Of a stretch of DNA of 43,591 nucleotides, positions 1,019-17,301 are shown in pieces. The stretch is from a virus, in IMG/VR virus record IMGVR_UViG_3300045976_000154, positions 1 through 43,591 of that record; one strand, written 5' to 3'. The notes under the pieces are model-generated. The model had not been told where the DNA came from. It was given only the letters and a program-made list of their open reading frames with translations, and ran no database searches. Numbering within the stretch: position 1 is the first letter of the stretch; the number at the start of each line of letters is the position of its first letter. The position numbers and the translations under genes are program-made.

Positions 1019-2509
1019 TCAGTTCACCCCGCGCTCGTCGCGCCAGTCGAACGCCGGGCTGCTGTTGGCCGGCGCGGAGACGCGCTCCAGCCAGCCCGTG
1101 CCGCGGCTGAACTGGACTGTCGTCAGGAAGCCCACAGCCTGGCCGAACGCGTGGCTCACCGCGTCGACGTAGACGCGCATCTGCGTCTTGCCGCGCGGGA
1201 TTACCAGGTACATGCCGGGCTTGATCGCCGGGTCGCCCTTCAGGCGCAGCGTCCCCGTCTCGAAGACCAGGTTGTCCTGGTTGAGGTCGATCAGCGTCTG
1301 CCGGCGCTGCGTGAGCCAGTCTTCCTCGGACAGCGTGCGCTGGCCGTTGCCGGCGGCGTCGGGCGCCATGATCGCCGCGCCGGCGTTCGTCAGCTGCGTC
1401 TGCACCTCCATGAAGCGCCAGCCGAACGACGTCGGGTCGTTATTCTCGCGCTGCGGGATGAGGTAGCTGGCGGCGTCGCCGGTCGCGCCCTGCAGGCGCC
1501 GCTCGTTGTCGTTGATGAGGTCACCGAAGGCGCGCGTCACCCAGAAGTAGTTCGCGACGCCCGCGTCGCTGCGCGTGAAGCTGCCGGCCACGTAGCTGTC
1601 GAGGCCAACCGTGTAGTCGGCCGCCGCGGCCGCGCCGCCGATCGGCGCGCCGCCGGCATCGCGCCAGGGCAGGGGGCGCGCGGTGAGCACGAGCGCCGTG
1701 TCCTGGTCATCGACGAACAGCTCGTTGAAGACGCCCACGTCCAGCAGGCTCGACAGCACCTCATAGACCGAGCGGCCGTCGAAGGCGCTGGAGCCCTGCA
1801 CGGGGGGCACCTGGCCGCTGGTGATCGTGCAGGCGGCCGTCATCGAGCGCAGCGGCGCCAGCGAGTCGGGCACGTTGGCGAACAGCTTGGCCAAGTACGG
1901 GTTGATGATCTGCGCGAGCGCGCCGGCCAGGAAGTCCGTCGGGGCCTGGATGTTGCCCTGGCTGCCGCTGAACATCGTCAGGGCGTCGAACGTCGCGAGC
2001 GCCTGCGGCCCGAAGGGGATGCCGTACTGGTCGGTGAGCGCCTGCGAGGCCTCGGGCGTCAGGCCCGCGGCCATGAAGCGGATGCGCAGCAGGTTGAGCA
2101 CGCGCCCGATGCCGTAGCCTGTGACCGTGATCCGCCGCTGCGGCTGGCCGCCGTCGATGTCCTCGTCCAGGCCGACACTGCCGACGAAGCCGCGCATGAT
2201 GAGCGGGTAGGGCGTGCCCGTGGCCACGCCGGTGCCGCGGATCTCGATGATGTCCATGGGCTCGATGAGCGCGTCCAGCATGTCGCCCAGGCCCGCGAGC
2301 GGCCGCGGCGTGAGCTGGATCTGGAAGCTGCCGCCGTTCGGGTCGGCCAGCGCGCGCGACGTGCGGAAGCCCGAGTCGGCCAGGTAGGGCGTGATGTCGA
2401 GCTTCGTGATCGACGTGAAGCGCGACGAGGCGGTGTAGGCGCCGCCCAGCGCGCTGCGCGCGCGCGGCTTGTACAGCCAGATGCTGGCCTGCGGGTTGCG
2501 GACTTTCAT
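1019..2509 (-). CDS. Baseplate hub protein (gpD/gp27/Mu gp44-like)
   Basis: A 496-residue protein. Its ATG overlaps the tape-measure stop (4-base overlap) and it is followed directly by the spike gene. The order tape measure, hub, spike is standard for contractile tails. The sequence is rich in short beta strands and includes a central segment with two YGIG/YLAKLF-type motifs, but I see no catalytic motif. The role, a trimeric hub that closes the tube and carries the spike, is inferred mainly from gene order, size and the polar beta-rich composition. An alternative is another baseplate component with a hub-like fold. Confidence 0.6.
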   Translation of the reverse strand: MKVRNPQASIWLYKPRARSALGGAYTASSRFTSITKLDITPYLADSGFRTSRALADPNGGSFQIQLTPRPLAGLGDMLDALIEPMDIIEIRGTGVATGTPYPLIMRGFVGSVGLDEDIDGGQPQRRITVTGYGIGRVLNLLRIRFMAAGLTPEASQALTDQYGIPFGPQALATFDALTMFSGSQGNIQAPTDFLAGALAQIINPYLAKLFANVPDSLAPLRSMTAACTITSGQVPPVQGSSAFDGRSVYEVLSSLLDVGVFNELFVDDQDTALVLTARPLPWRDAGGAPIGGAAAAADYTVGLDSYVAGSFTRSDAGVANYFWVTRAFGDLINDNERRLQGATGDAASYLIPQRENNDPTSFGWRFMEVQTQLTNAGAAIMAPDAAGNGQRTLSEEDWLTQRRQTLIDLNQDNLVFETGTLRLKGDPAIKPGMYLVIPRGKTQMRVYVDAVSHAFGQAVGFLTTVQFSRGTGWLERVSAPANSSPAFDWRDERGVN

Positions 2510-5460
2510 CGCACGATGCCGCCGTCGGCGTCGATCTGGTAGAGGCCGGCGGCCTTGGGCGTGCCGGAGCCGGCCAGCGGGATCGTCTTCGACGGCGCGA
2601 GCTGGTTGCCCTTGCTGTCCTTCACCGTCACGGTGAGCTCGTGGTAGGACGGCAGCGCCGGTCCTGCGGCGGCGGGCGCCGCGCCGGCGCCGGGCGCCAC
2701 CTTGGCGTCGGGCAGCGTGTCGGGCGCGAGCATGGGCACCTCGCGCGCGAACGCGTCGCCATAGGCGTCGGCGGCGGCCGAGCGCGTGTACGGGCCGCCG
2801 TTGTACATGCGCGCCGCGGCGCGCCGATCGCCGCCGGCGCGCTTGAGCATCTCCGCGTAGATCGCGGCGCCGGCGCGGATGTTGTCGACCGGGTTCATCG
2901 CCGTCTCGGGCGTCAGGCCGAGCGCATCCAGGTTCGAGCCGTTGATGCCCATGAGGCCGTAGTCCGTCGTCCCGTTTGCGTTGTCGTGCTTCGCGTTCGG
3001 GTTGAGCGTCGACTCGCGCGTGGCGAGCAGCTTCAGCTCGCGCCAGGAGAACGGCTTGCCGATCGAGGCCGCCCGGAACAGCGGGTCGAGCGCGCTGGGC
3101 GAGTTCGTGAGGTCGGCGTTGCTGCGGTCGACCTTCTCGTCGCGCGCGCGCTGCGCCGCGGCCTCCGGCGAGTCCGGGTGGTCGCGCACGAACTCGGCAC
3201 GCTGCTCGACGCCGATCTGGGCATCGATCGCCGCCTTCTGCTTCGTCAGGCCCTCGACCACACCCGCGTCGGGCGGCAGGAACATCGGCTTGCCGCCGAC
3301 GTCCACGCGCCGGCCGACCTTGGCGGACTCGATCTGCTTGGACAGGTCGGCGCTCTGCCGCTGCAGCTTCACCACCGGCGAGACGCCCATCAGCTCGTCG
3401 GCCTTGTCCTGGTCGATGACCTTGAAGAACTGCGCGGTGCGCACGACCGCCTCACGCACGCCCTCCATGATCGGGATGAGCTTGCTCGCGAGCGTGGTGA
3501 CGGCGTTGTCGATCGCCGCCAGGCTGTCGCGCGTCTTCTCGCCCTCGGTCTTGATCGTCTCCTTGGCGGCGATCGGCGCGAGCACCTTGCGCAGCTTCTC
3601 GTCGTCGTCGCCGGCCGCGGCGATCGCGGAGCGCTGCTGGTCGGTGAGCGCGTCCGCGCCCGTGCGCGCGAGCATGTCGGCGCGGCGCTGCACGAGGTCG
3701 GCGTGCCCAGCACTGAGCACGCCCGCTGCCTGCGCCATCTGCCCGACGTTGATGCCGGTCGTGTCGACGCCCAGGCCCTTGAGCTGCTCCAGGACGCCGG
3801 CCGTGCCTCGGCCGCGCATGGCCGCCATCAGCGCGTAGGCGTCGCCGCGCGAGGGCGCGCCCATCGCCTGCAGGGCGGAGGCGAGCTGCTGCGTGTTGCC
3901 ACCGTAGCGCGCCTGCAGGCCGCCATAGACGCTGTCGAAGACGGTCCCGTTGCCGGCGGCCGAGCTCATGCGGCCCAGGCGATCCATCTCGCGCGTGTCG
4001 CCGCGCGCGGCCGCAGCGCGGTAGGCCGGGCTGTTCTCGCCGAAGACGTCGCGCACGTTGGCCATCAGGCCGGCCTCGCGCACCGACTGCACGTCGTAGC
4101 CCGTGGCGGGCATCCCGCGGCGCATCATCGACGACAGCAGCAGCATGTCGCCCGACTCGCCGCCGGCGCCGCCGCGGAAGCCCGCGTCCATCGCCGCCAT
4201 CCGGCCGATGCCCTCGGCGGTGCCCAGGCCCGGCAGGCGCAGCTGCGCCAGGCGCGCGGCGACGTCCAGGACGTTGTCCGTGTTCGCGCGCGTCAGCGAG
4301 CCGCCGGCGACCTGAGACGAGTAGGCGGTGAGGTTGCCCAGCACCTCCGACAGCCGGCCGAAGTCGCCGCGCTTGGAGATGGCGTCCGCGATCGACCGGC
4401 CGAGCTTGTCGGGCGAGTCCTGGCCGGTGCGGCGCAGCTCGGCGAACTGGCTCACCGTCGAGCCCACGTCCAGACCCATGAGGCGCGCGAAGCCGCCGGC
4501 GCGGCCCGTCTCGTCGAACAGGCGCCCGCGGTCGGACTGCCCGATGCCGCTGGCCGCCGCGTAGGCGCGCGACAAGCCCGTCGCCTCGCCGGTCGTCACG
4601 TCCAAGCCCCGGCCCAGCGCGCTCGCGCTCTCGCGCAGCCGGTCGAACTCGTCGGCCGTGCCGCCCACCGAGCGGATGAGGTCGCTGCGCGACTGGCCTT
4701 CCTCCTGCGCGGCGCCGACCTTGCCGGCGACGGCGCCGACCAGCTTCATCGCACCGAAGGCCGCCGCGCCGATGACGCCGCCCAGCGCCAAGCGCCCGAG
4801 CCCGGCGGCCGACGTGAAGCCGCCGGCGCCCGAGGCCTCGGCGATGCCCTGGCCGAAGATCCGGCCGCCCAGGCCGGGGGAGGGGAGCAGCTGCCCGGCG
4901 ACGCCGCGGCCAGTCATCGCCAGCGCGCGCGCCGCGAAGCCGGCGGCAGAGCCCGGCGCGCCGCCGCCGGGCGAGCCCGGCCTGCCGTCGCCCAGGCCGA
5001 TCGCGCCGAGCACCTGCGCGCGCATGCGCTTGGCCTCGGTCTCCGACAGCGCGGCCTTGCGCCAGCCGCCATCGAGGTACTCGTCGAGCGTGCCGGGCAG
5101 CCGGCGCGTGCCGCGCGCGCCGGACTGGCGCCAGGCGTCGTACTCCGTGCGCGCGTTCGCCACCTGCTCGCGCGTGCGCTTCACGCCGATGCTGGCCAGC
5201 TGGCCCTGCATCTTGACCGTCTTGGCCAGCTCGTCGTTGAGCTTCTTCTGCGCGGTGACCGCGGCCGGCAGCGACAGCTGCTTGTCGACCTGCTTGCCGG
5301 CCTCCCCGAGCTTGTCGATCGCCTTCTCGGCCCCCGTCGTGTCGAGGACGACCTCGCGCGGCTTGGCGGCGTCGTCGATCTTCGCGCCAAGGTCGACGAC
5401 CTCCTTGTCGACCCCGGAGAGGTCGGCGCCGATCTTGATTTCGGGGTTGTTGCCGCTCAT
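2506..5460 (-). CDS. Tape measure protein with C-terminal lytic transglycosylase domain
   Basis: A 984-residue protein, the second longest gene-like frame in the block, placed after the tail-chaperone pair as expected for a tape measure. The N-terminal 130 residues are charged and helical. A hydrophobic Gly/Ala segment lies at about residues 205-245, and a long Ala/Arg-rich helical middle follows. Residues about 800-905 form an SLT-type transglycosylase: a RES motif with catalytic Glu near 816, then YGLMGIN, then MYNGGP. This domain would open peptidoglycan during DNA entry. By the usual scaling of about 0.15 nm per residue, a tail near 150 nm is expected (inference). The last 60 residues are Ala/Pro/Gly-rich. 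Confidence 0.88.
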   Translation of the reverse strand: MSGNNPEIKIGADLSGVDKEVVDLGAKIDDAAKPREVVLDTTGAEKAIDKLGEAGKQVDKQLSLPAAVTAQKKLNDELAKTVKMQGQLASIGVKRTREQVANARTEYDAWRQSGARGTRRLPGTLDEYLDGGWRKAALSETEAKRMRAQVLGAIGLGDGRPGSPGGGAPGSAAGFAARALAMTGRGVAGQLLPSPGLGGRIFGQGIAEASGAGGFTSAAGLGRLALGGVIGAAAFGAMKLVGAVAGKVGAAQEEGQSRSDLIRSVGGTADEFDRLRESASALGRGLDVTTGEATGLSRAYAAASGIGQSDRGRLFDETGRAGGFARLMGLDVGSTVSQFAELRRTGQDSPDKLGRSIADAISKRGDFGRLSEVLGNLTAYSSQVAGGSLTRANTDNVLDVAARLAQLRLPGLGTAEGIGRMAAMDAGFRGGAGGESGDMLLLSSMMRRGMPATGYDVQSVREAGLMANVRDVFGENSPAYRAAAARGDTREMDRLGRMSSAAGNGTVFDSVYGGLQARYGGNTQQLASALQAMGAPSRGDAYALMAAMRGRGTAGVLEQLKGLGVDTTGINVGQMAQAAGVLSAGHADLVQRRADMLARTGADALTDQQRSAIAAAGDDDEKLRKVLAPIAAKETIKTEGEKTRDSLAAIDNAVTTLASKLIPIMEGVREAVVRTAQFFKVIDQDKADELMGVSPVVKLQRQSADLSKQIESAKVGRRVDVGGKPMFLPPDAGVVEGLTKQKAAIDAQIGVEQRAEFVRDHPDSPEAAAQRARDEKVDRSNADLTNSPSALDPLFRAASIGKPFSWRELKLLATRESTLNPNAKHDNANGTTDYGLMGINGSNLDALGLTPETAMNPVDNIRAGAAIYAEMLKRAGGDRRAAARMYNGGPYTRSAAADAYGDAFAREVPMLAPDTLPDAKVAPGAGAAPAAAGPALPSYHELTVTVKDSKGNQLAPSKTIPLAGSGTPKAAGLYQIDADGGIVR

Positions 5461-5469
5461 GCCGCCACG

Positions 5470-6103
5470 CTACTGTCCCGACGCGCCGCGCTGCAGCTCA
5501 TCGTCTGGCACGTCCTCGAAGTCGTCGACCGGCGGCAGACCCAGCTGCTCGCGCATCTCGGCGACGCGATCCTCGAAGTTCTCGTCGGTGAATTCCTCGT
5601 CGACGACGCCGCGCGCGAGGAACTGCACCCGCCAGTAGTCGGTCTGCGCCTGCTCCGGCGTCAGCGCGAGGAAGCGCGGATCGGTCTCCGGCAGCCGGAA
5701 GTGGTTGCGGTACCAGAACTCGATCGACTCGAACGTCGCCGCCGCTTCCTCACGCGCTCGACGGCGGATTTGCTGGTCGAAAGGAGTCCTCCTTCGCCTT
5801 CACATCGGCGTACAGCTCGATGATGAAGGCTTCGTTCTCGGGGTGCTCGACCATCTCGACGGCGGCCAGGTCCTCCCAGCCCTTGGGCGCCTCGACGCAC
5901 AGCACGCGGTGCATCGCGACGACGCCGGCCATGGCGGCCAGATCCTTGTCCAGGTCAGGGCCATCCTCGACGCCGGCGGCGCGCAGGAACTTCACGAACT
6001 CGGCGCGGATTGCCGCGCGATCGCCGTAGGTGCGGCGGCCGTAGACGAACCGGCCGATGGCCGGGTGCACGACCTCGAAATCGGTGGGGGAGGGGGCTCG
6101 CAT
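5470..6103 (-). CDS. Tail assembly chaperone GT fusion made by programmed +1 frameshift
   Basis: The frame that follows the G-type chaperone (5,778 down to the TAG at 5,470) encodes about 102 residues with normal codon use, for example EFWYRNHF and REQLGLPPVDDFEDV. It has no start codon near its beginning, and an in-frame TGA lies just upstream of the shift region. It can be translated only by a ribosome moving +1 from the G frame. A shift on TTT followed by C (TTT to TTC, bases 5,782-5,779) gives a protein of about 210 residues. G and GT chaperones coat the tape measure before the tube polymerises, and this pair lies directly upstream of the tape measure gene. Confidence 0.75.
5750..6103 (-). 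CDS. Tail assembly chaperone G-type protein
   Basis: A 117-residue acidic protein (starts MRAPSPTDFEVV) encoded just upstream of the tape measure, separated from it only by a start-less downstream frame. Size, position and the out-of-frame extension fit the gpG member of a G/GT tail chaperone pair. It ends nine codons after the proposed shift site, so most of its sequence is shared with the fusion. I see no enzymatic motif, and sequence similarity in this family is usually weak, so the call rests on architecture. Confidence 0.72.
   Translation of the reverse strand: MRAPSPTDFEVVHPAIGRFVYGRRTYGDRAAIRAEFVKFLRAAGVEDGPDLDKDLAAMAGVVAMHRVLCVEAPKGWEDLAAVEMVEHPENEAFIIELYADVKAKEDSFRPANPPSSA
5777..5796 (-). 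other. Candidate +1 ribosomal frameshift site
   Basis: On the minus strand the sequence is CGAAGGAGGACTCCTTTCGA. Phe-tRNA on TTT can re-pair with TTC after a +1 slip, and the codon then awaiting decoding is CGA, usually slow. A perfect Shine-Dalgarno-like AAGGAGG lies 5 bases upstream of TTT, with no start codon of its own. This resembles the prfB +1 arrangement, with slightly longer spacing than prfB. Confidence 0.6.
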
Positions 6104-6110
6104 GGTGGTG

Positions 6111-6368
6111 TCAGCTTCCGTTGCGGGCGCGCGCGGCGGCGCGCTTCTCGTAGTCGTCGCGGCAGTCCTGGTCGCAAAAGCGCTGGCCGGCCTTCAGCTC
6201 GATGAGGCAGTTCGCGCACACGCCGTCGGGCAGCCGCGGCGCGCGCGCGGCGCGATCGCGCTGGGCGGCGAGCGCCGCTTCGCGCTCGCGCTCCTCGACG
6301 GCAGTGGCCTGGTCGTCGACCGACGTCGGCGGCCGCTCGAACTCCTCCGGGACGCGGTCAGCCGCCAT
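6111..6368 (-). CDS. Small putative zinc-finger protein
   Basis: An 85-residue protein. Its first half is charged and helical (EEREREAALAAQRD). The second half has CANC, then FCDQDC, a four-cysteine pattern like small zinc ribbons that read CxxC-x10-CxxxC. The gene overlaps the end of the Rz gene by 11 bases and ends 7 bases before the tail chaperone gene. The function is unknown; metal binding is inferred from the cysteine spacing. Confidence 0.6.
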   Translation of the reverse strand: MAADRVPEEFERPPTSVDDQATAVEEREREAALAAQRDRAARAPRLPDGVCANCLIELKAGQRFCDQDCRDDYEKRAAARARNGS

Positions 6369-6960
6369 TCGTCGTCGTCCTCACGGCGTCGTACTCGGCC
6401 CGGCAGGCGCCGAGGCGGGCGGCGAGATCGTCAGCGTAGTCCGCCAGATCCCCCGCAGTCTGGTCAGCCCAGCCGAGCACCTCGACGAGGAGGCCGTCGG
6501 CGCGCTGGCGGACGCTGGCGGCAGGCACACCGACGGCGCCGACGCCGGGAAGTCCGCCGCGGGCGACAGCGGCGGGATCTTCGTCGGGGCGACCACCACG
6601 GGAATCTGCGGCGGCAAGGGCTTCGGCGGCGTCGAGCAGGCTGCGATGAGCAGCGGCAGCGTCAGCGCGAGCAGCGTCGCGCTCGCGGGTTGCGACTTGG
6701 GCGTCATGTTCGACCTTCTCCTGTTGGGCGATGAGGGTGCGGTGCTCCTGCTCGTGCAGGGCCTCCGCGGCGGATGCGGCCTGGGCCATGCGCAGGCGAT
6801 CGGCGTCCCATTCGCGCTGCTTCTCGACGGCCTCGGCGTGGCCGCGCTTGTAGCCGGCGGCGTCGCCGGTGACGACGCCCTCGTGGTGGACGACTGCGAT
6901 GCCGCCGCCGATGGCTCCCACGAGCGCGAGCGCGGCGAGGATGGTGAAGGCGCCGTTCAT
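6358..6960 (-). CDS. Rz: Inner-membrane spanin (Rz-like)
   Basis: A 200-residue type II membrane protein. The start at 6960 (MNGAFTIL) overlaps the upstream stop as ATGA. It is followed at once by a hydrophobic segment at residues 5-22, then a long charged, Ala/Glu/Arg-rich coiled coil to about residue 130. This is the i-spanin plan: an inner-membrane anchor with a periplasmic coiled coil. A lipoprotein frame nested inside the gene supplies the outer-membrane partner. Together they fuse inner and outer membranes at the last step of lysis. The upstream transglycosylase completes the cassette. Confidence 0.8.
   Translation of the reverse strand: MNGAFTILAALALVGAIGGGIAVVHHEGVVTGDAAGYKRGHAEAVEKQREWDADRLRMAQAASAAEALHEQEHRTLIAQQEKVEHDAQVATRERDAARADAAAAHRSLLDAAEALAAADSRGGRPDEDPAAVARGGLPGVGAVGVPAASVRQRADGLLVEVLGWADQTAGDLADYADDLAARLGACRAEYDAVRTTTNGG
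6381..6707 (-). CDS. Rz1: Outer-membrane spanin lipoprotein (Rz1-like), nested in Rz
   Basis: A 108-residue frame lying wholly inside the Rz gene in another reading frame. Residues 1-24 form a lipoprotein signal: a polar start, the hydrophobic stretch ATLLALTLPLL, then the lipobox IAAC with Cys24 as the first mature residue. The mature part begins STPPKPLPP and is Pro-rich, as is usual for Rz1. Full nesting of Rz1 in Rz is known from several phages. The C-terminal half is less Rz1-like and longer than many homologues. Confidence 0.78.
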   Translation of the reverse strand: MTPKSQPASATLLALTLPLLIAACSTPPKPLPPQIPVVVAPTKIPPLSPAADFPASAPSVCLPPASASAPTASSSRCSAGLTRLRGIWRTTLTISPPASAPAGPSTTP

Positions 6961-7589
6961 ACGATGTCCTCCTTGAACGGCGCCCACGCGACGCGGCCGC
7001 CCTCGAACGTGAAATTCAGGCCCATCGCGCGCTCGATGACCTTGCGGTCCTGCGGCTCGGCGTCCTGCAAGTGCTCCGTGTAGAAATTGCCCCAGGTCGT
7101 GGCCGCGGCCGGCTTGCCGGCTTGCGTCCAGCGGTACTCGGGGGCGCCGTCCTCGCGGCGGAAGCCGTCCTGGATGCGGATCATTCGCTCGCCGCGATCG
7201 GCGATGGCTTCGGTGGGCGAGCCGGCCTTCATGCACTCGCACTTCGCTGTGCGGAAGCTCTGCTCGCCGTGCTCACAGGCGGCGCCAGAGCGCGGGCAGA
7301 CCGGCACGGCGTGCGACGTGGACATGCGGCTTTCGAGCTGGCCGACATGCGGGTTCGGCACGTCGTCGACATACAGCTTGTGCGGCCAGCCGTACTTCCA
7401 GTCGGCCCAATCGGCACGCGCGCCGGCGCGCAGCGCCGCGGCCAGGTCGGCCGGGTGCATCGAGCCGCAGTAGCTGCACGAGCGCAGCTGGCCCGTCGTG
7501 AGGCCGGCCGCGAGGTCGGGCGCCTGCGCGTCGCGCCAGGTCGCCTCCATGGCGCTGAAGACGGTGGTCTTGTGCTTGTGGGCTTCCAT
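6957..7589 (-). CDS. Hypothetical protein in lysis cassette
   Basis: A 210-residue soluble protein that I do not recognise. The start at 7589 (MEAHKHKTT) overlaps the end of the transglycosylase gene, and its stop overlaps the Rz start, so it is translationally coupled within the lysis operon. It has a CSYC pair near residue 40, then CPRSGAAC and CEC further on, so it may bind metal. The C-terminal part reads like a short substrate-recognition or regulatory segment (YRWTQAGK, WAPFKEDI). No membrane segment is visible, which argues against a holin. Confidence 0.6.
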   Translation of the reverse strand: MEAHKHKTTVFSAMEATWRDAQAPDLAAGLTTGQLRSCSYCGSMHPADLAAALRAGARADWADWKYGWPHKLYVDDVPNPHVGQLESRMSTSHAVPVCPRSGAACEHGEQSFRTAKCECMKAGSPTEAIADRGERMIRIQDGFRREDGAPEYRWTQAGKPAAATTWGNFYTEHLQDAEPQDRKVIERAMGLNFTFEGGRVAWAPFKEDIV

Positions 7590-8563
7590 CACAGCACCTC
7601 CGCGTAGCGCGCGCGGCGCACGATCAGGACGTTGCGCACGTAGCCGCGATTGATCGCGAAGGCGCTCTGCCCGTAGCCCGCGCGCGCGGCGCGCGCCTTG
7701 AGCGAGTGGAGCTCGACGTTGCCGAACCAGACCCGGGCGTCGCAGCCGCGCACCGCGGCGCATAGGCGCCTGTCGCTCTGCAGTCCGCCCATGCCGCCGT
7801 TGTAGGCCGCAAAGGTCATCGCCAGCCGGTCCTGTGGCGACGGCACCGTGCCCAACGACCGGTAGAGGCCGCGGTCGGTCAGCACCAGCGTGCGCAGCTG
7901 GCGCCGCGGGTCGAAGCGATCGGCGAACTGCCAGTCACGCAGGCTCGGGTCAAGACCGCGCGCGGCCGCGAAGTTGTCGAAGGCCTTGGTGATCGTGACC
8001 TGGCCGAGGCCGACGCCGTACTCGAAGGGCGTCTTCAGCTCGGCGTGCGAGCTCCAGCACATGCGCGATCGCAGGCTCGGGCAGGTCTCCTGCTCCACCT
8101 GGGCGCCCAGCGTCGCCGGGTCGGGCATCGCCTGCCAGAAGGCGAGCTGTTCGGCCTTGAGCACCGGCAGCAGCGCGCGCGCCGCGGCGGGCGGCTGCGG
8201 CGCGGGCTCGGCGGCGCGCGCCGTCGACAGGCACCCGAGCAGCAGCGCGACGTAGATCAGCGCGCCGACCAGCGCCTGGCCGAGCCACATGACGGCCGCC
8301 GGCAGGCTGCCAGCCATCCCCTTGCGCCAGGCCTCGTGCGATCGCGCCTCGCCGCCGAGCGCGCGCCGGATCATGTACGCCGGCCCCGCGACGACGAAGG
8401 CCCAGCTCATGAACTGCAGGCGCAGCAGCGTGTCCTTGCCGGCGTCCGGGTCGGTGACCAGGAACCAGCCGATGACGGCCAGCGCGAGGCCCGCCATGAC
8501 GAACAGGCGGAACGCCCATACGCGGCCGACGCCGCCCCAATCGATCGCCTTCAGGAAATCCAT
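7589..8563 (-). CDS. Membrane-tethered lytic transglycosylase endolysin
   Basis: A 324-residue protein; I chose ATG 8563 (MDFLKAIDW) because the longer frame upstream runs into the terminator. Three hydrophobic segments lie at residues about 16-36, 46-66 and 86-111. They are followed by ARA at 115-117, a possible signal-peptidase site, and a GC pair at 110-111 resembling a weak lipobox. Residues 140-265 form an SLT-like domain: EQET with likely catalytic Glu159, then YGVGLGQ, then AAYNGG. With a cytoplasmic N-terminus, three passes put the enzyme in the periplasm. It may act as a holin-endolysin fusion or as a releasable, membrane-arrested endolysin. Confidence 0.78.
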   Translation of the reverse strand: MDFLKAIDWGGVGRVWAFRLFVMAGLALAVIGWFLVTDPDAGKDTLLRLQFMSWAFVVAGPAYMIRRALGGEARSHEAWRKGMAGSLPAAVMWLGQALVGALIYVALLLGCLSTARAAEPAPQPPAAARALLPVLKAEQLAFWQAMPDPATLGAQVEQETCPSLRSRMCWSSHAELKTPFEYGVGLGQVTITKAFDNFAAARGLDPSLRDWQFADRFDPRRQLRTLVLTDRGLYRSLGTVPSPQDRLAMTFAAYNGGMGGLQSDRRLCAAVRGCDARVWFGNVELHSLKARAARAGYGQSAFAINRGYVRNVLIVRRARYAEVL

Positions 8564-8585
8564 GTTGCCGCTCCGAAGAGGTTGG

Positions 8586-8612
8586 AAAAAAGCCACCTCG
8601 CGCGGAGGTGGC
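8586..8612 (-). terminator. Rho-independent terminator after tail tube gene
   Basis: On the minus strand an 8-bp perfect stem, GCCACCTC pairing with GAGGTGGC around a 5-base loop, is followed by six T residues. It lies 40 bases past the tail tube stop and 23 bases before the lysis gene start, so it separates the tube and lysis units, at least partly. Confidence 0.85.
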
Positions 8613-8652
8613 GAAGGAGACGGGCCCCTTCCACGAGCCCGACCCGACGCAC

Positions 8653-9093
8653 TCACATGCCGGTGCCCGTCACGTTCAGGGCCATGAACTGCGCATCGGC
8701 GACGAGGATCTGGTGCTTCTGGATGTCGATGCGCCCGCTCGCGTAGGAGCAGCTGCTGTACTTGCGCAGCACCGCACCGGACGCGGCGTCCTGGACGATG
8801 AAGTCGAAGACGATGCCCTTGAGCGCGTCGTCGCCATTCAGCGAGGCGATGCCGGCGGTGCGCAGCTGCTCCTTGAGCAGCACGATCTGCGACAGACTCA
8901 CCGAATGGCGCGCCTGCGTCGGGACGTGCTCGATGATGTGGATGTCGCCGATGCCACTGGCACCGTCCAGGCCATAGTCGTCGCTCAGGCTCACGCTCTG
9001 CGCGAGGCCGACCTGGATGCCGGCGACCTGCACGACGACCGTGTTGCCGGTGCGAACCTTGCGGTTCACGGAGGTGATGGGGGCGGTTGCCAT
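8653..9093 (-). CDS. Tail tube protein
   Basis: A 146-residue protein encoded 38 bases downstream of the tail sheath, the usual sheath-tube order. It is rich in predicted beta strands, with TSVNRKVRTGNTVVVQV at the N-terminus and an amphipathic central region, and has the 140-170 residue length typical of myovirus tube proteins. It would stack as hexamers to form the inner tube through which DNA passes. A strong terminator follows. High expression would be expected. The assignment is by position, size and overall pattern rather than a diagnostic motif. Confidence 0.8.
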   Translation of the reverse strand: MATAPITSVNRKVRTGNTVVVQVAGIQVGLAQSVSLSDDYGLDGASGIGDIHIIEHVPTQARHSVSLSQIVLLKEQLRTAGIASLNGDDALKGIVFDFIVQDAASGAVLRKYSSCSYASGRIDIQKHQILVADAQFMALNVTGTGM

Positions 9094-9131: not shown

Positions 9132-10850
9132 TCAGGCCGAGGCCGTGCCGCTGTACGGCACCGCGTGCACCAGGATGCCGATGAAGTTGGTCGGGATGAC
9201 CGGCGAGACCTGCACTTGCACCACGATGTGGTCGCCCGTCAGGCTGGCCGTCAGCCCCTTCCAGGCCGGGCTCGTCGCGTCGCCGACGATGACGCCAGGG
9301 CCGATCGGGTTGGGCGTGGCCAGCTGGTCGAGCACCGTCTCGCAGCGCGAGATGATCTCGGCCAGCAGCAGGGCCGAGCCGTTCTTGCCGACCTCGGTCT
9401 CGCAGGTCTCGCGCAGCGCGCGCACCACGTAGTCCAGCGCCGTGCCCGTGCTGACCTCGACGCGGTTGAAGTTGTCGTTGGCCAGCCAGGTGGTGATCGA
9501 GCGCGTGCAGCGGTAGCCGCGGCTGGTCTTGTCGAACGGCACCACGCCGCCGGCGATCAGCGCATCCGTGTCCGTCGGGTTCTTCAGCTGGCGCTCGAAG
9601 CCCTGGCACTTCAGGGTCTTGTTCGTCAGCGCGGTGCCCGGCGGCAGGCCGGCCATCGCGCCGGCGCACTGCGCGGCCAGGATGTAGGGCGCGAACAGCG
9701 TCAGCGTGCCGCTGGCGTCGTAGTCCCAGACGCCCAGGTGCACGAGCGAGACGCGGTCGTCGTTCAGGCTCAGCGCCTCGGCCAGCGCCGCGGCGTCGGA
9801 CGTACCCAGCGCGGTGCCGCACCAGGCGCGGCGCTCGGCGCGCGCGACCGTGCTCATGTAGTCGACGTGCGCGCTGGCCATCGCATGGATCGAGGCCGCG
9901 CCGCTGACGGGCACGACCCACTGGACGTCCTCGGTCTGCAGCAGGTCGAACGCGTTGCTCCAGTCCTGGTTCACGACGGTCGGCGACGTGCCACCCTGCG
10001 CCACGACGAAGCCCGAGGTCACGGCCACCGCACCGGCGCCGAAGACCTGCGTCGCGTTGAAGACGGTCGGCTCGGCCGAGCTGTTGATCCAGTTCGTCAC
10101 CGCGACGTTGATCGCGGTGATGTCCAGGCCGGCGCCGATGTCCTGGTTCGTCGACGTGTCGAACAGGGCCGCCGTCGCGAGCGATTCCAGGCCCGGCGCC
10201 GCGGTGGCGCTGAAGCCCTGCACGACGTTGATGGCGTCGACCAGCTGCTGCACCGTCGGGTATTGCGCGAAGGGCAGCATCGCCACCACCGAGCCGGACA
10301 GGCGCAGCGTGATGTCGCCGGTGTTGACCTGCGCGCGCGGCGTCGAGCCATTGCCGGTGTAGAACACCGTCATCGGCGCGAGGTACAGGTTGTCGCCGAC
10401 CTCGGAGACCCCGTTTTGCTTGACCGTGATCTTGCGGCCCTTGGCGGTGCCCGCCTCGACCTTGATCTGGGCGCCCACCGTGCGGATGCCGTAGTCGGAG
10501 GTCAGCAGCGTGATGGCCGGGCTCGACGCGCCATCGGTGAGCGTCGCGCTCGACTGCGTCGGCGAGCCCACGCGCAGGAAGCCGATCTTGGCCGGGCCGC
10601 CGGTCTCGGCGCTCGGGTCGAACGCCTTCTTGATCGCGGCCAGCGAGTCGCCGTCGATGCCCATCTTGACGGCGTCGTCGGCGCTGGACAGCCAGTGCAC
10701 CACGCCCGGCACACCGTAGTTGCTGGTGCCCAGGATGGCGAGGTTGTCGGACAGGGCGACGGCGGTGTCGGCCATCGCCGACTCGTCGATCGCGGAGACG
10801 ACGACCGGCGTGAGATATTGCCGGCCGTTCCAGTAGAAGCCTCGGCTCAT
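9132..10850 (-). CDS. Contractile tail sheath protein
   Basis: A 572-residue protein starting MSRGFYWNGRQYLTP. Its features are those of sheath proteins: an N-terminal segment of small residues (AVALSDNLAILGTSNYG), a central variable beta domain, and a conserved C-terminal third with SRGYRCTRSITTW and DYVVRALRETCE, which correspond to the polymerisation domain. The tail tube gene follows immediately. It forms the helical outer layer that contracts during injection, which makes this a myovirus-type particle. Confidence 0.9.
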   Translation of the reverse strand: MSRGFYWNGRQYLTPVVVSAIDESAMADTAVALSDNLAILGTSNYGVPGVVHWLSSADDAVKMGIDGDSLAAIKKAFDPSAETGGPAKIGFLRVGSPTQSSATLTDGASSPAITLLTSDYGIRTVGAQIKVEAGTAKGRKITVKQNGVSEVGDNLYLAPMTVFYTGNGSTPRAQVNTGDITLRLSGSVVAMLPFAQYPTVQQLVDAINVVQGFSATAAPGLESLATAALFDTSTNQDIGAGLDITAINVAVTNWINSSAEPTVFNATQVFGAGAVAVTSGFVVAQGGTSPTVVNQDWSNAFDLLQTEDVQWVVPVSGAASIHAMASAHVDYMSTVARAERRAWCGTALGTSDAAALAEALSLNDDRVSLVHLGVWDYDASGTLTLFAPYILAAQCAGAMAGLPPGTALTNKTLKCQGFERQLKNPTDTDALIAGGVVPFDKTSRGYRCTRSITTWLANDNFNRVEVSTGTALDYVVRALRETCETEVGKNGSALLLAEIISRCETVLDQLATPNPIGPGVIVGDATSPAWKGLTASLTGDHIVVQVQVSPVIPTNFIGILVHAVPYSGTASA

Positions 10851-15129: not shown

Positions 15130-17301
15130 CTACCCGGTGCGCCGGCCGCCGCGACGCGCGACTGGAACCGATGCTGCTGTCACGTTCCAGCTGCGGGGCG
15201 ACGCGCTCAGCTCGATGCGCCGCGCCGGCGCCGGCTCCGACAGCGGCGCGACGGCCGCCGCGATCGATGGCGCTGCGGCGAGCGTGGCCACCGCGTTCAG
15301 CTGCATGTCGAGCTTGACCTGGCTCAGCATCGGGCCCGCCGTGAACGCCGGGCGCGCCGCCAGCAGGGCGCGGGCCGAGACGATGAACAGCGGATGCGCG
15401 GCCAGCGACGCCGAGGCAGCGAGGCTCGCGTTCAGCCGCATCGTCGTATCGAGCGGGGCCATGAGCGTGGAGGCCGCCACCACGCGCGCGCGCAGAAGCG
15501 CCACCATGCGGCCGCCAAAAGCTGAACCGGCGCTGCCACCGGTGGACGCCAGGCGCGCCGCGAGCGGCTTCGAGACCACCGGCCCGGCGGCGAGCGTCGC
15601 CGTCGCGCGCAGCGCCGCCAGCTCGGGGCGCAGGACGCGCATCGACGGCGTGATGGTCGCGCTGGCCGCCAGTGCCGCCGCCAGCGGCACGCCGGTCTTC
15701 ATCCGCGGGATCAACGTGCCGGCGGACAGCAGGGACGCCACGAGCGGCACGCCGGCGATGAGCGTCGGCGGCGGCATGGATGCCGCGCCGCGCAGCGCGG
15801 CCGCCAGCCGCACGTCGGTGCGGATCGTGGCGCTCATTACCGAGCTCGCGCCCAGCGCTGCCGCGGCGTGGCTGACGTTCGACAGGCGGCCAGTCCACGA
15901 CGGGGCGACGGCCAGCGTGACGGCGAGCGGCCGCACGACTAGGGGGTTCGCAGTCATCGCCGGCAGGGTGGGGAGGTTCGCCACCAGCCGGGTGCTCAGG
16001 CTCGCCGCCGCCGCGAGCAGCGACGTCGCCGTCAGGCGCCCGGCCAGGGGCTTGGCCACCGTCGCCGCCGGCGTCACGCTGGCGACGCTCGCGAGCGCGG
16101 CCGCAGCCGAGACCATGGTGCTGATCCGGCCGCCCATGACCGATGCGGCCGACAGGACCGCGTTCAGCCGCGCGCCGGCCGCCCCGACGAACAGGGGCTG
16201 CGTCTGCAGGAGTGCCGTCAGCGGGCGCGCGACCGTCATCGTGGCCGCGAGCATGGATGCCGCCTGCGGCGCAGCCGCCACCGACCAGCCGACGGCCAGC
16301 GGCGCGGAGAGCGAGGCCGCGCTCGTGAGCAGCGCCTGCTGCCGCACGCTCAGGCCGGCGGCGCCGAATGCCGAACGACCAGCGAGCGCGGCCGACGCCA
16401 GCCCTCGCGATGCCGCGAGGGAATGCGCTTCGGCCTGCAGCAGGGCCGCGACCGGACGCAGCACCGTCACCGCGGCGGCGAGCGAGCTGGCGGCGCTCAT
16501 GACCGCGGCGCCGCGCAGGCGGGCGGCCGCGCTCAGCGAGGCTTGCGCGGCGAGGGGGCTGGCCAGCGGCCTTGCGACCTTCGCCATGGCCGACAGCGCC
16601 GCGCTCGCGCGCATCGACGTCGAGGGCGACAGCACGATCGAGGTCGACACCGAGGCGGTCGACGTCAGGGTCGACTTGACGGCCGCCGGTCGCCCATAGA
16701 TGTACGTGACGATCGCGTTGGCAGCCTGGGCCGTACCCGTGGTCGGCGTGATCGACCACGCCGGGTTCAGGTTGACCTTGTTGCCGATGATTTCGTAGGC
16801 CGCCAGCGCGATCTCGGGGCTGGTCTGGCCTCCGAGCGCCGTGAAGCCGGAGGGCGCCGTGTAGCTGCCCGTGGAGTCGGGCGAGAAGAAGCCGGTGATC
16901 ACCAGCTCGCCCGAGACCGAGACCGTGCCAGTCGAGCCCGTCGAAGAGTTCGTGCCGGCGCTACCACTGCCCGCGACCTTGTCGACGATCGCCTGGAACA
17001 TGCCCGAGAAGATCGAGCTGACGACCAGGTAGTCGCACGCCGACGCGAAGTTCAGCGTCACCGACGTCGTGCCCGCTGGCGCCTCGACCATGTGGAGGAT
17101 TGACGTGCGCGCGCCGGAGACGCCGTTGCTCGTCTGCGTGATGTCCAGCGTCCAACCCGCGGGCGTCGACGCCAGAGGCTGCAGCGAGAAGACGACCAGG
17201 CTCAGGAAGTAGCCGGACGCCGCCGGCGTCATGCTGACGGTCACCGAACTGCCGTTGCCTTGAACGGATGCGCTCGACTGGAACGCGATGGTCGTCGGCA
17301 T
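15130..17301 (-). CDS. Large repeat-containing virion/fibre protein
   Basis: A 723-residue protein in two parts. Residues 1-205 form a beta-sandwich-like domain (AGWTLDITQTSNG, WSITPTTGTAQAANAIVTYIYG). Residues about 222-690 are an imperfect repeat, nearly all Ala, Leu, Ser, Val and Thr, with a signature xVxRPLAxxLxAxASLxA recurring about every 18-24 residues (RP replaced by KP or VP in some copies). Proteins of this kind would form a beta-solenoid or fibrous stalk. The C-terminus (PARRIELSASPRSWNV) is a short separate end. A head or tail decoration fibre is the best guess; no enzymatic motif is visible. Confidence 0.65.
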   Translation of the reverse strand: MPTTIAFQSSASVQGNGSSVTVSMTPAASGYFLSLVVFSLQPLASTPAGWTLDITQTSNGVSGARTSILHMVEAPAGTTSVTLNFASACDYLVVSSIFSGMFQAIVDKVAGSGSAGTNSSTGSTGTVSVSGELVITGFFSPDSTGSYTAPSGFTALGGQTSPEIALAAYEIIGNKVNLNPAWSITPTTGTAQAANAIVTYIYGRPAAVKSTLTSTASVSTSIVLSPSTSMRASAALSAMAKVARPLASPLAAQASLSAAARLRGAAVMSAASSLAAAVTVLRPVAALLQAEAHSLAASRGLASAALAGRSAFGAAGLSVRQQALLTSAASLSAPLAVGWSVAAAPQAASMLAATMTVARPLTALLQTQPLFVGAAGARLNAVLSAASVMGGRISTMVSAAAALASVASVTPAATVAKPLAGRLTATSLLAAAASLSTRLVANLPTLPAMTANPLVVRPLAVTLAVAPSWTGRLSNVSHAAAALGASSVMSATIRTDVRLAAALRGAASMPPPTLIAGVPLVASLLSAGTLIPRMKTGVPLAAALAASATITPSMRVLRPELAALRATATLAAGPVVSKPLAARLASTGGSAGSAFGGRMVALLRARVVAASTLMAPLDTTMRLNASLAASASLAAHPLFIVSARALLAARPAFTAGPMLSQVKLDMQLNAVATLAAAPSIAAAVAPLSEPAPARRIELSASPRSWNVTAASVPVARRGGRRTG
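15234..16638 (-). repeat. Degenerate protein-level tandem repeats in the 723-residue gene
   Basis: About twenty diverged copies of a short unit centred on RPLA, KPLA or VPLA. Units are recognisable at protein level but not as exact DNA repeats, so they look old and selected rather than recently slipped. Confidence 0.65.

Follow-up and report, generated by a model that had tools for sequence, protein, structure and literature searches.

The locus and its protein pair

The window analysed here is the whole 43,591-nucleotide stretch of the IMG/VR virus record IMGVR_UViG_3300045976_000154. Two overlapping reading frames, ORF1 and ORF2, lie on its minus strand (Table 1), and ORF2 stands in a frame that only a +1 (or −2) shift from ORF1 can reach. 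The 47-nt overlap contains AAG GAG GAC TCC TTT CGA, in which TTT occupies 5782-5780 and CGA 5779-5777; five nucleotides (ACTCC) separate AAGGAGG from TTT. The initial annotation had placed the pair at 5470-6103, which is exact in coordinates and in sequence. It had also described the second frame as lacking a start codon, following an in-frame TGA and needing such a shift. A frame scan of the window bears this out: ORF2 opens after the TGA at 5802-5800 and holds no ATG, GTG or TTG before a GTG at 5628, which is within the conserved domain.

Table 1 Features of the two-frame locus and of neighbouring tail genes in the window
Feature	Position	Strand	Details and basis
ORF1, G-like tail assembly chaperone, zero frame	5750..6103	minus	ATG to TGA, 117 aa, 12.8 kDa
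ORF2, T-like extension, +1 frame	5470..5799	minus	ends at TAG 5472-5470
Zero-frame stop TGA, ends the short product	5750..5752	minus
TGA of the +1 frame, upstream bound of ORF2	5800..5802	minus
Shift site UCC_UUU_CGA (E, P and A codons)	5777..5785	minus	conservation and re-pairing
AAGGAGG, predicted internal Shine-Dalgarno-like stimulator	5788..5794	minus	anti-SD pairing in relatives
Tape-measure gene with SLT transglycosylase domain	2506..5460	minus	Pfam PF01464, E 6.6e-14; phrog_2013 lytic tail protein
Tail tube-like gene, upstream	8653..9093	minus	phrog_985 virion structural protein, E 3.3e-34
Tail sheath gene, upstream	9132..10850	minus	phrog_279, E 3.8e-57

We take ORF1 and ORF2 to be the two-frame G/GT tail assembly chaperone pair of a contractile-tail phage. 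The initial annotation had already proposed a tail chaperone GT fusion, and the assignment is upheld by profile matches and by gene order. ORF2 of the window matches phrog_25000 (tail assembly chaperone) at profile positions 128-191 (E 3.8e-5). This is a single 230-residue family spanning both halves in order, and it is matched by 43 of 52 ORF2 homologues and 16 of 54 ORF1 homologues; ORF1 of the window alone gave no phrog_25000 match. An AlphaFold model of ORF1 is confident (pLDDT 94) and, when compared with viral proteins in BFVD, finds the tail assembly chaperone of Bacillus phage JL (E 3.9e-4, TM 0.60). Against the PDB the model has weak matches only, with the HK97 chaperone 2ob9 ranking second (E 0.77). 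Pfam holds no family for either half, giving chance-level hits only, and a sequence search against solved structures returned no useful match for the chaperone. The tape-measure gene starts at 5460, directly downstream of the end of ORF2. The order tube, chaperone, tape measure is kept in relatives, where the tube gene directly precedes the chaperone; in the window an additional block separates the two. A two-frame chaperone likewise precedes the tape measure in lambda (G/GT) and Mu (PMC5009743). By analogy with lambda, G would bind the tape measure and GT would recruit the tube protein.

The additional block (6358-8656, minus strand) resembles a lysis cassette by eye. One of its ORFs (355 aa) has membrane segments and ends in a lysozyme/SLT-like region; another (6381-6707, LLIAACS) is lipoprotein-like and lies inside a longer ORF in a different frame, also by eye, in the manner of Rz/Rz1. 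Just before the chaperone gene, at 6111-6368 on the minus strand, is a small DksA-like zinc-finger protein (phrog_54, E 1.8e-6). A 723-aa ORF at 15130-17301 (minus strand) consists mostly of degenerate Ala-, Ser- and Leu-rich repeats. We found no phage-encoded tRNA in the window.

A tblastn search located the gene pair in the 90-96-kb genomes of phages of Bordetella, Pseudomonas, Aeromonas, Enterobacter and Yersinia. Gene order is unchanged there, and most of the records list the two halves as hypothetical proteins. A further 105 loci came from viral contigs in two alignment-based scans; single-sequence viral scans gave one. Removal of identical regions left 71 unique loci with both halves, the window included, which form 59 clusters at 80% identity (represented by one member each), 25 at 60% and 9 at 50%. 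In three public records ORF2 is labelled RNA polymerase (beta subunit) (L128, 1253-1840; L124, 975-1442; L130, 1070-1645), and phrog_1316, which bears the same name, matches three ORF2 homologues. This label is likely a propagated misannotation. The present assignment corrects an annotation in which the C-terminal half of the chaperone stands as a gene of its own, sometimes as an RNA polymerase beta subunit.

Conservation of the shift site and of the upstream element

The relatives confirm that the site is conserved. ORF2 is in the +1 frame in 71/71 unique loci and the aligned shift codon is TTT in all of them, against a background in which TTT makes up about 35-37% of Phe codons in the same genes. 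With clustering at 60% identity the count is 25/25 versus 37% (p 1.7e-11). The window itself is GC-rich (71%), and TTT accounts for 4 of the 105 Phe codons in nine of its genes, one of the four being the shift site. Since TTT is this rare in the window and both TTT and the +1 frame are invariant among the relatives, the shift site is not a matter of chance. The serine codons preceding TTT are also biased, being TCC or TCT in 17 of 18 clusters at 60% identity versus 29% in the background (p 9e-9).

The codon following TTT is CGA in 28 loci, CGC in 28, CGT in 13, and AGA and AAA in one each, so that CGN follows in 69/71. CGG is absent (0/57 representatives; 0/23 clusters at 60%, p 7e-4), although it makes up about a quarter of CGN codons in the background. 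The initial annotation had invoked slow decoding of CGA. That codon is indeed rare in the window (7 of 220 Arg codons in the nine genes); however, CGC and CGT serve as well and only CGG is avoided. Relatives use CGC as often as CGA, and CGC is the most frequent Arg codon of the window; slow decoding of CGA is therefore not the conserved cause. Among bacterial tRNAs, the inosine-bearing tRNA-Arg (ICG) reads CGU, CGC and CGA and not CGG. The absence of CGG would set the codons of this tRNA apart from CGG. We note that the sole two homologues without CGN are L011 (TTT AGA, around 2500) and L073 (TTT AAA, around 2804). In the latter TTT is followed by AAA AAG, which could slip +1 itself.

The initial annotation had also pointed to AAGGAGG, five bases upstream of TTT, as a Shine-Dalgarno (SD)-like element, and this too is supported by the relatives. 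Pairing with the anti-SD at ΔG ≤ −5 is found at one fixed place in 52/59 representatives. The peak is the segment starting at −12 (mean ΔG −8.0), the two overlapping segments sharing its signal; elsewhere the means lie at about +1.3 to −2.8, and segments that do not overlap the SD reach ΔG ≤ −5 in 0 to 18 of 59. AGGAGG ends 5 nt before TTT, and the conserved GGAG core 6 nt before it. In 54/59 the third base of codon −4, the codon that supplies GGAG with its first G, is G irrespective of the residue encoded (K, Q, R, A, S or M); the significance of this bias is lost with the 9 clusters at 50% identity. Codon −3 is GAG in 50 and GAA in 6 (p 3e-9 for clusters at 80%, 1e-3 at 60%). The G-ending codon −4 regardless of residue, together with the GAG bias at −3, argues for selection on the RNA beyond the protein and supports an SD-like element under selection. 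The element is weak in about 7/59 representatives and none is evident in the Herelleviridae described below; it is thus not obligatory. The strength of the SD at the site and general SD use, compared per locus, showed no significant correlation (Spearman 0.18, p 0.18). Three close relatives (L034, L037 and L041) lack an SD ahead of the site (CAG CAC CAA AGC TTT CGC). L034 shows no SDs at its gene starts either (mean −0.5 kcal/mol), hinting that its host may not use them.

The same purine stretch could in principle act differently, with AAGGA pairing with TCYTT across a 4-nt loop, so that a small hairpin of the purine stretch and TCY, not an SD, stimulates the same slip. Most relatives, like the window, show the AAGGA/TCCTT complementarity. 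Such a hairpin would, however, take in the P-site codon, a part of the message kept single-stranded within the ribosome, and TCC and ACC before TTT persist in Herelleviridae that lack the purine stretch. We consider a hairpin stimulator improbable and retain the SD-like element. A downstream stem-loop was also tried as a stimulator and rejected: for 70-nt segments starting at +6 to +30, mean folding z-scores were −0.07 to −0.33, near zero and without excess over controls (pseudoknots being outside this test).

Direction of the shift and the proposed mechanism

Re-pairing of the P-site tRNA distinguishes the two possible directions. After a +1 shift tRNA-Phe (GAA) pairs at all three positions in 57/59 representatives, as the initial annotation had seen for TTT to TTC in the window; the other two, L011 and L073, would keep two pairs. 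The same final frame, with one extra Phe, would be reached by a −2 shift at this position, and −2 is known for the tail chaperone of phage Mu (PMC3498833). The full re-pairing of a Mu-type shift is found in only 2/59, and in 33/59 tRNA-Phe would pair at one position only. Moreover, a +1 shift requires UUU followed by C, and that C is the conserved base. On this re-pairing +1 is strongly favoured over −2, which we regard as improbable, slightly more so than the hairpin.

Independent translation of ORF2, with a start of its own or through reinitiation behind ORF1, merits slightly less credence still. In public records ORF2 does appear as a gene in its own right that begins at an internal start, and AAGGAGG could resemble a ribosome-binding site. 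Against this stands the absence of start codons before 5628 in the window frame; moreover, the annotated starts in relatives fall inside the conserved domain, no start is conserved, and the SD points at UUU and not at a start codon. Least probable of all is a +1 shift elsewhere in the overlap, for example at the zero-frame stop: any overlap codon would yield the right frame, but only the TTT-CGN stretch is (nearly) invariant, and between it and the zero-frame stop lie anywhere from 9 to 129 nt, depending on the locus. Sequencing error was rejected, as the organisation is common to 71 unique loci; transcriptional slippage was rejected on general grounds, the run being three or four U only.

We favour +1 slippage at UUU: the G/GT chaperone is very probably made by slippage from UUU to UUC, with AAGGAGG as the predicted stimulator. 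We infer slippage to be the less frequent outcome, in that most ribosomes would read ORF1 to its TGA and release the 117-aa G-like protein. In the others the P-site tRNA-Phe would slip +1 from UUU to UUC, GAC would be decoded and reading would continue, giving a 210-aa GT fusion of 24.1 kDa. The predicted junction is ...KEDSF-DQQIRRR..., with EDSFDQQIR as the expected tryptic peptide. Pairing of the upstream AAGGAGG with 16S rRNA would raise the chance of slipping, via pausing and/or mild forward tension; both are possible.

Relation to known frameshift systems

Bacillus phage Goe26 was found by searching with ORF1 from one of the relatives. We read the junctions of 18 Herelleviridae: Goe26, SPO1, CampHawk, LysYB1, SP8, EalM-132, Troll, Goe8, 278BB001, Bacchae, BM15, Grass, P100, A5W, phiEF17H, Porthos, SIOphi and LfeInf. 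A Lactobacillus phage query, whose first ~75 residues were not from a record, gave a rough ~509 records; it served only to locate records, from which the DNA was then read directly. All 18 have ORF2 in the +1 frame and TTT_C near the end of ORF1. The site is TTT_CGN in 16/18, the exceptions being SIOphi (TTT_CAA) and LfeInf (TTT_CTG), and no CGG follows TTT in any of the 18. PG-2021_15 has the same protein ending (TFRY), seen at the protein level only. The joined coding sequences span 784 nt in SPO1, 1045 in Troll and 1189 in LfeInf, each 3n+1. SPO1 gp10.2-gp11.1 and the other Herelleviridae chaperones thus share with the window a homologous gene pair, the gene order, the +1 frame and TTT_CGN; they differ in having no evident SD-like element before the site and in their Gram-positive hosts. 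The +1 direction is not new for this chaperone family: the SPO1 record annotates ribosomal slippage as +1, and the +1 shift of the Moonbeam tail chaperone has been called unusual (PMC4299906). The initial annotation had likewise called the +1 shift unusual. It does not stand alone, as this site is standard both among the phages related to the window and among the Herelleviridae sampled. In the literature searched, which excluded the SPO1 genome paper, we found no account of the common site, of its link to influenza PA-X or of the SD variant.

The closest known site, which the initial annotation did not name, is that of influenza A PA-X, where UCC_UUU_CGU directs a +1 shift shown by peptide (PMC3498833). 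Firth and co-workers noted the CGN preference in eukaryotic viruses and predicted a UUU_C class (PMC3498833). UCC_UUU_CGN, the +1 direction, the P-site change from UUU to UUC and the CGN A-site codon are common to PA-X and the window (PMC3498833), and TCC TTT CGT in A5W and SPO1 is the influenza sequence itself. At the window site UUU is followed by C, the second frame is +1 and the folding z-scores indicate no dependence on a downstream stem-loop. PA-X differs in its eukaryotic ribosome, its unrelated gene and the lack of an SD; the resemblance of the motifs is presumably convergent. A site class discussed for eukaryotic viruses is here fixed in a large and old set of bacterial virus genes. 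Tentatively, and with less than even confidence, UUU_CGH (H = A, C or U) may be an autonomous +1 cassette on bacterial ribosomes that needs no slow or stop codon in the A-site, probably acting via tRNA-Arg (ICG), fixed before the Herelleviridae and the ~90-kb myophages of Gram-negative hosts split, with one lineage adding an SD. If so, the same cassette in influenza would reflect a general property of the ribosome. Because the E-site codon, the A-site codon and the SD all vary naturally, the preference for CGN over other CNN is testable in E. coli and B. subtilis.

The chaperones of lambda (−1) and Mu (−2) differ from that of the window in direction and in their slippery sites. The parallel drawn in the initial annotation with prfB (release factor 2) is apt in part. 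Both have an internal SD at a fixed place, a slippery pyrimidine codon and a +1 shift (PMC12421855). In prfB, however, the A-site holds a stop codon and the shift is regulated by RF2, whereas the window has CGA; the SD spacing is 3 nt as against 5 nt here (6 nt from the GGAG core), and the slippery codon is CUU in place of UUU (PMC12421855). For −1 sites SD spacings are 8 to 11 nt (PMC6321510). The predicted SD-stimulated site would thus resemble prfB in kind and differ from it in spacing. At the level of sequence the programmed +1 frameshift signal in this tail assembly chaperone is real and conserved, and the combination of SD and UUU_CGN is best read as an addition by this lineage to a known type of +1 site.
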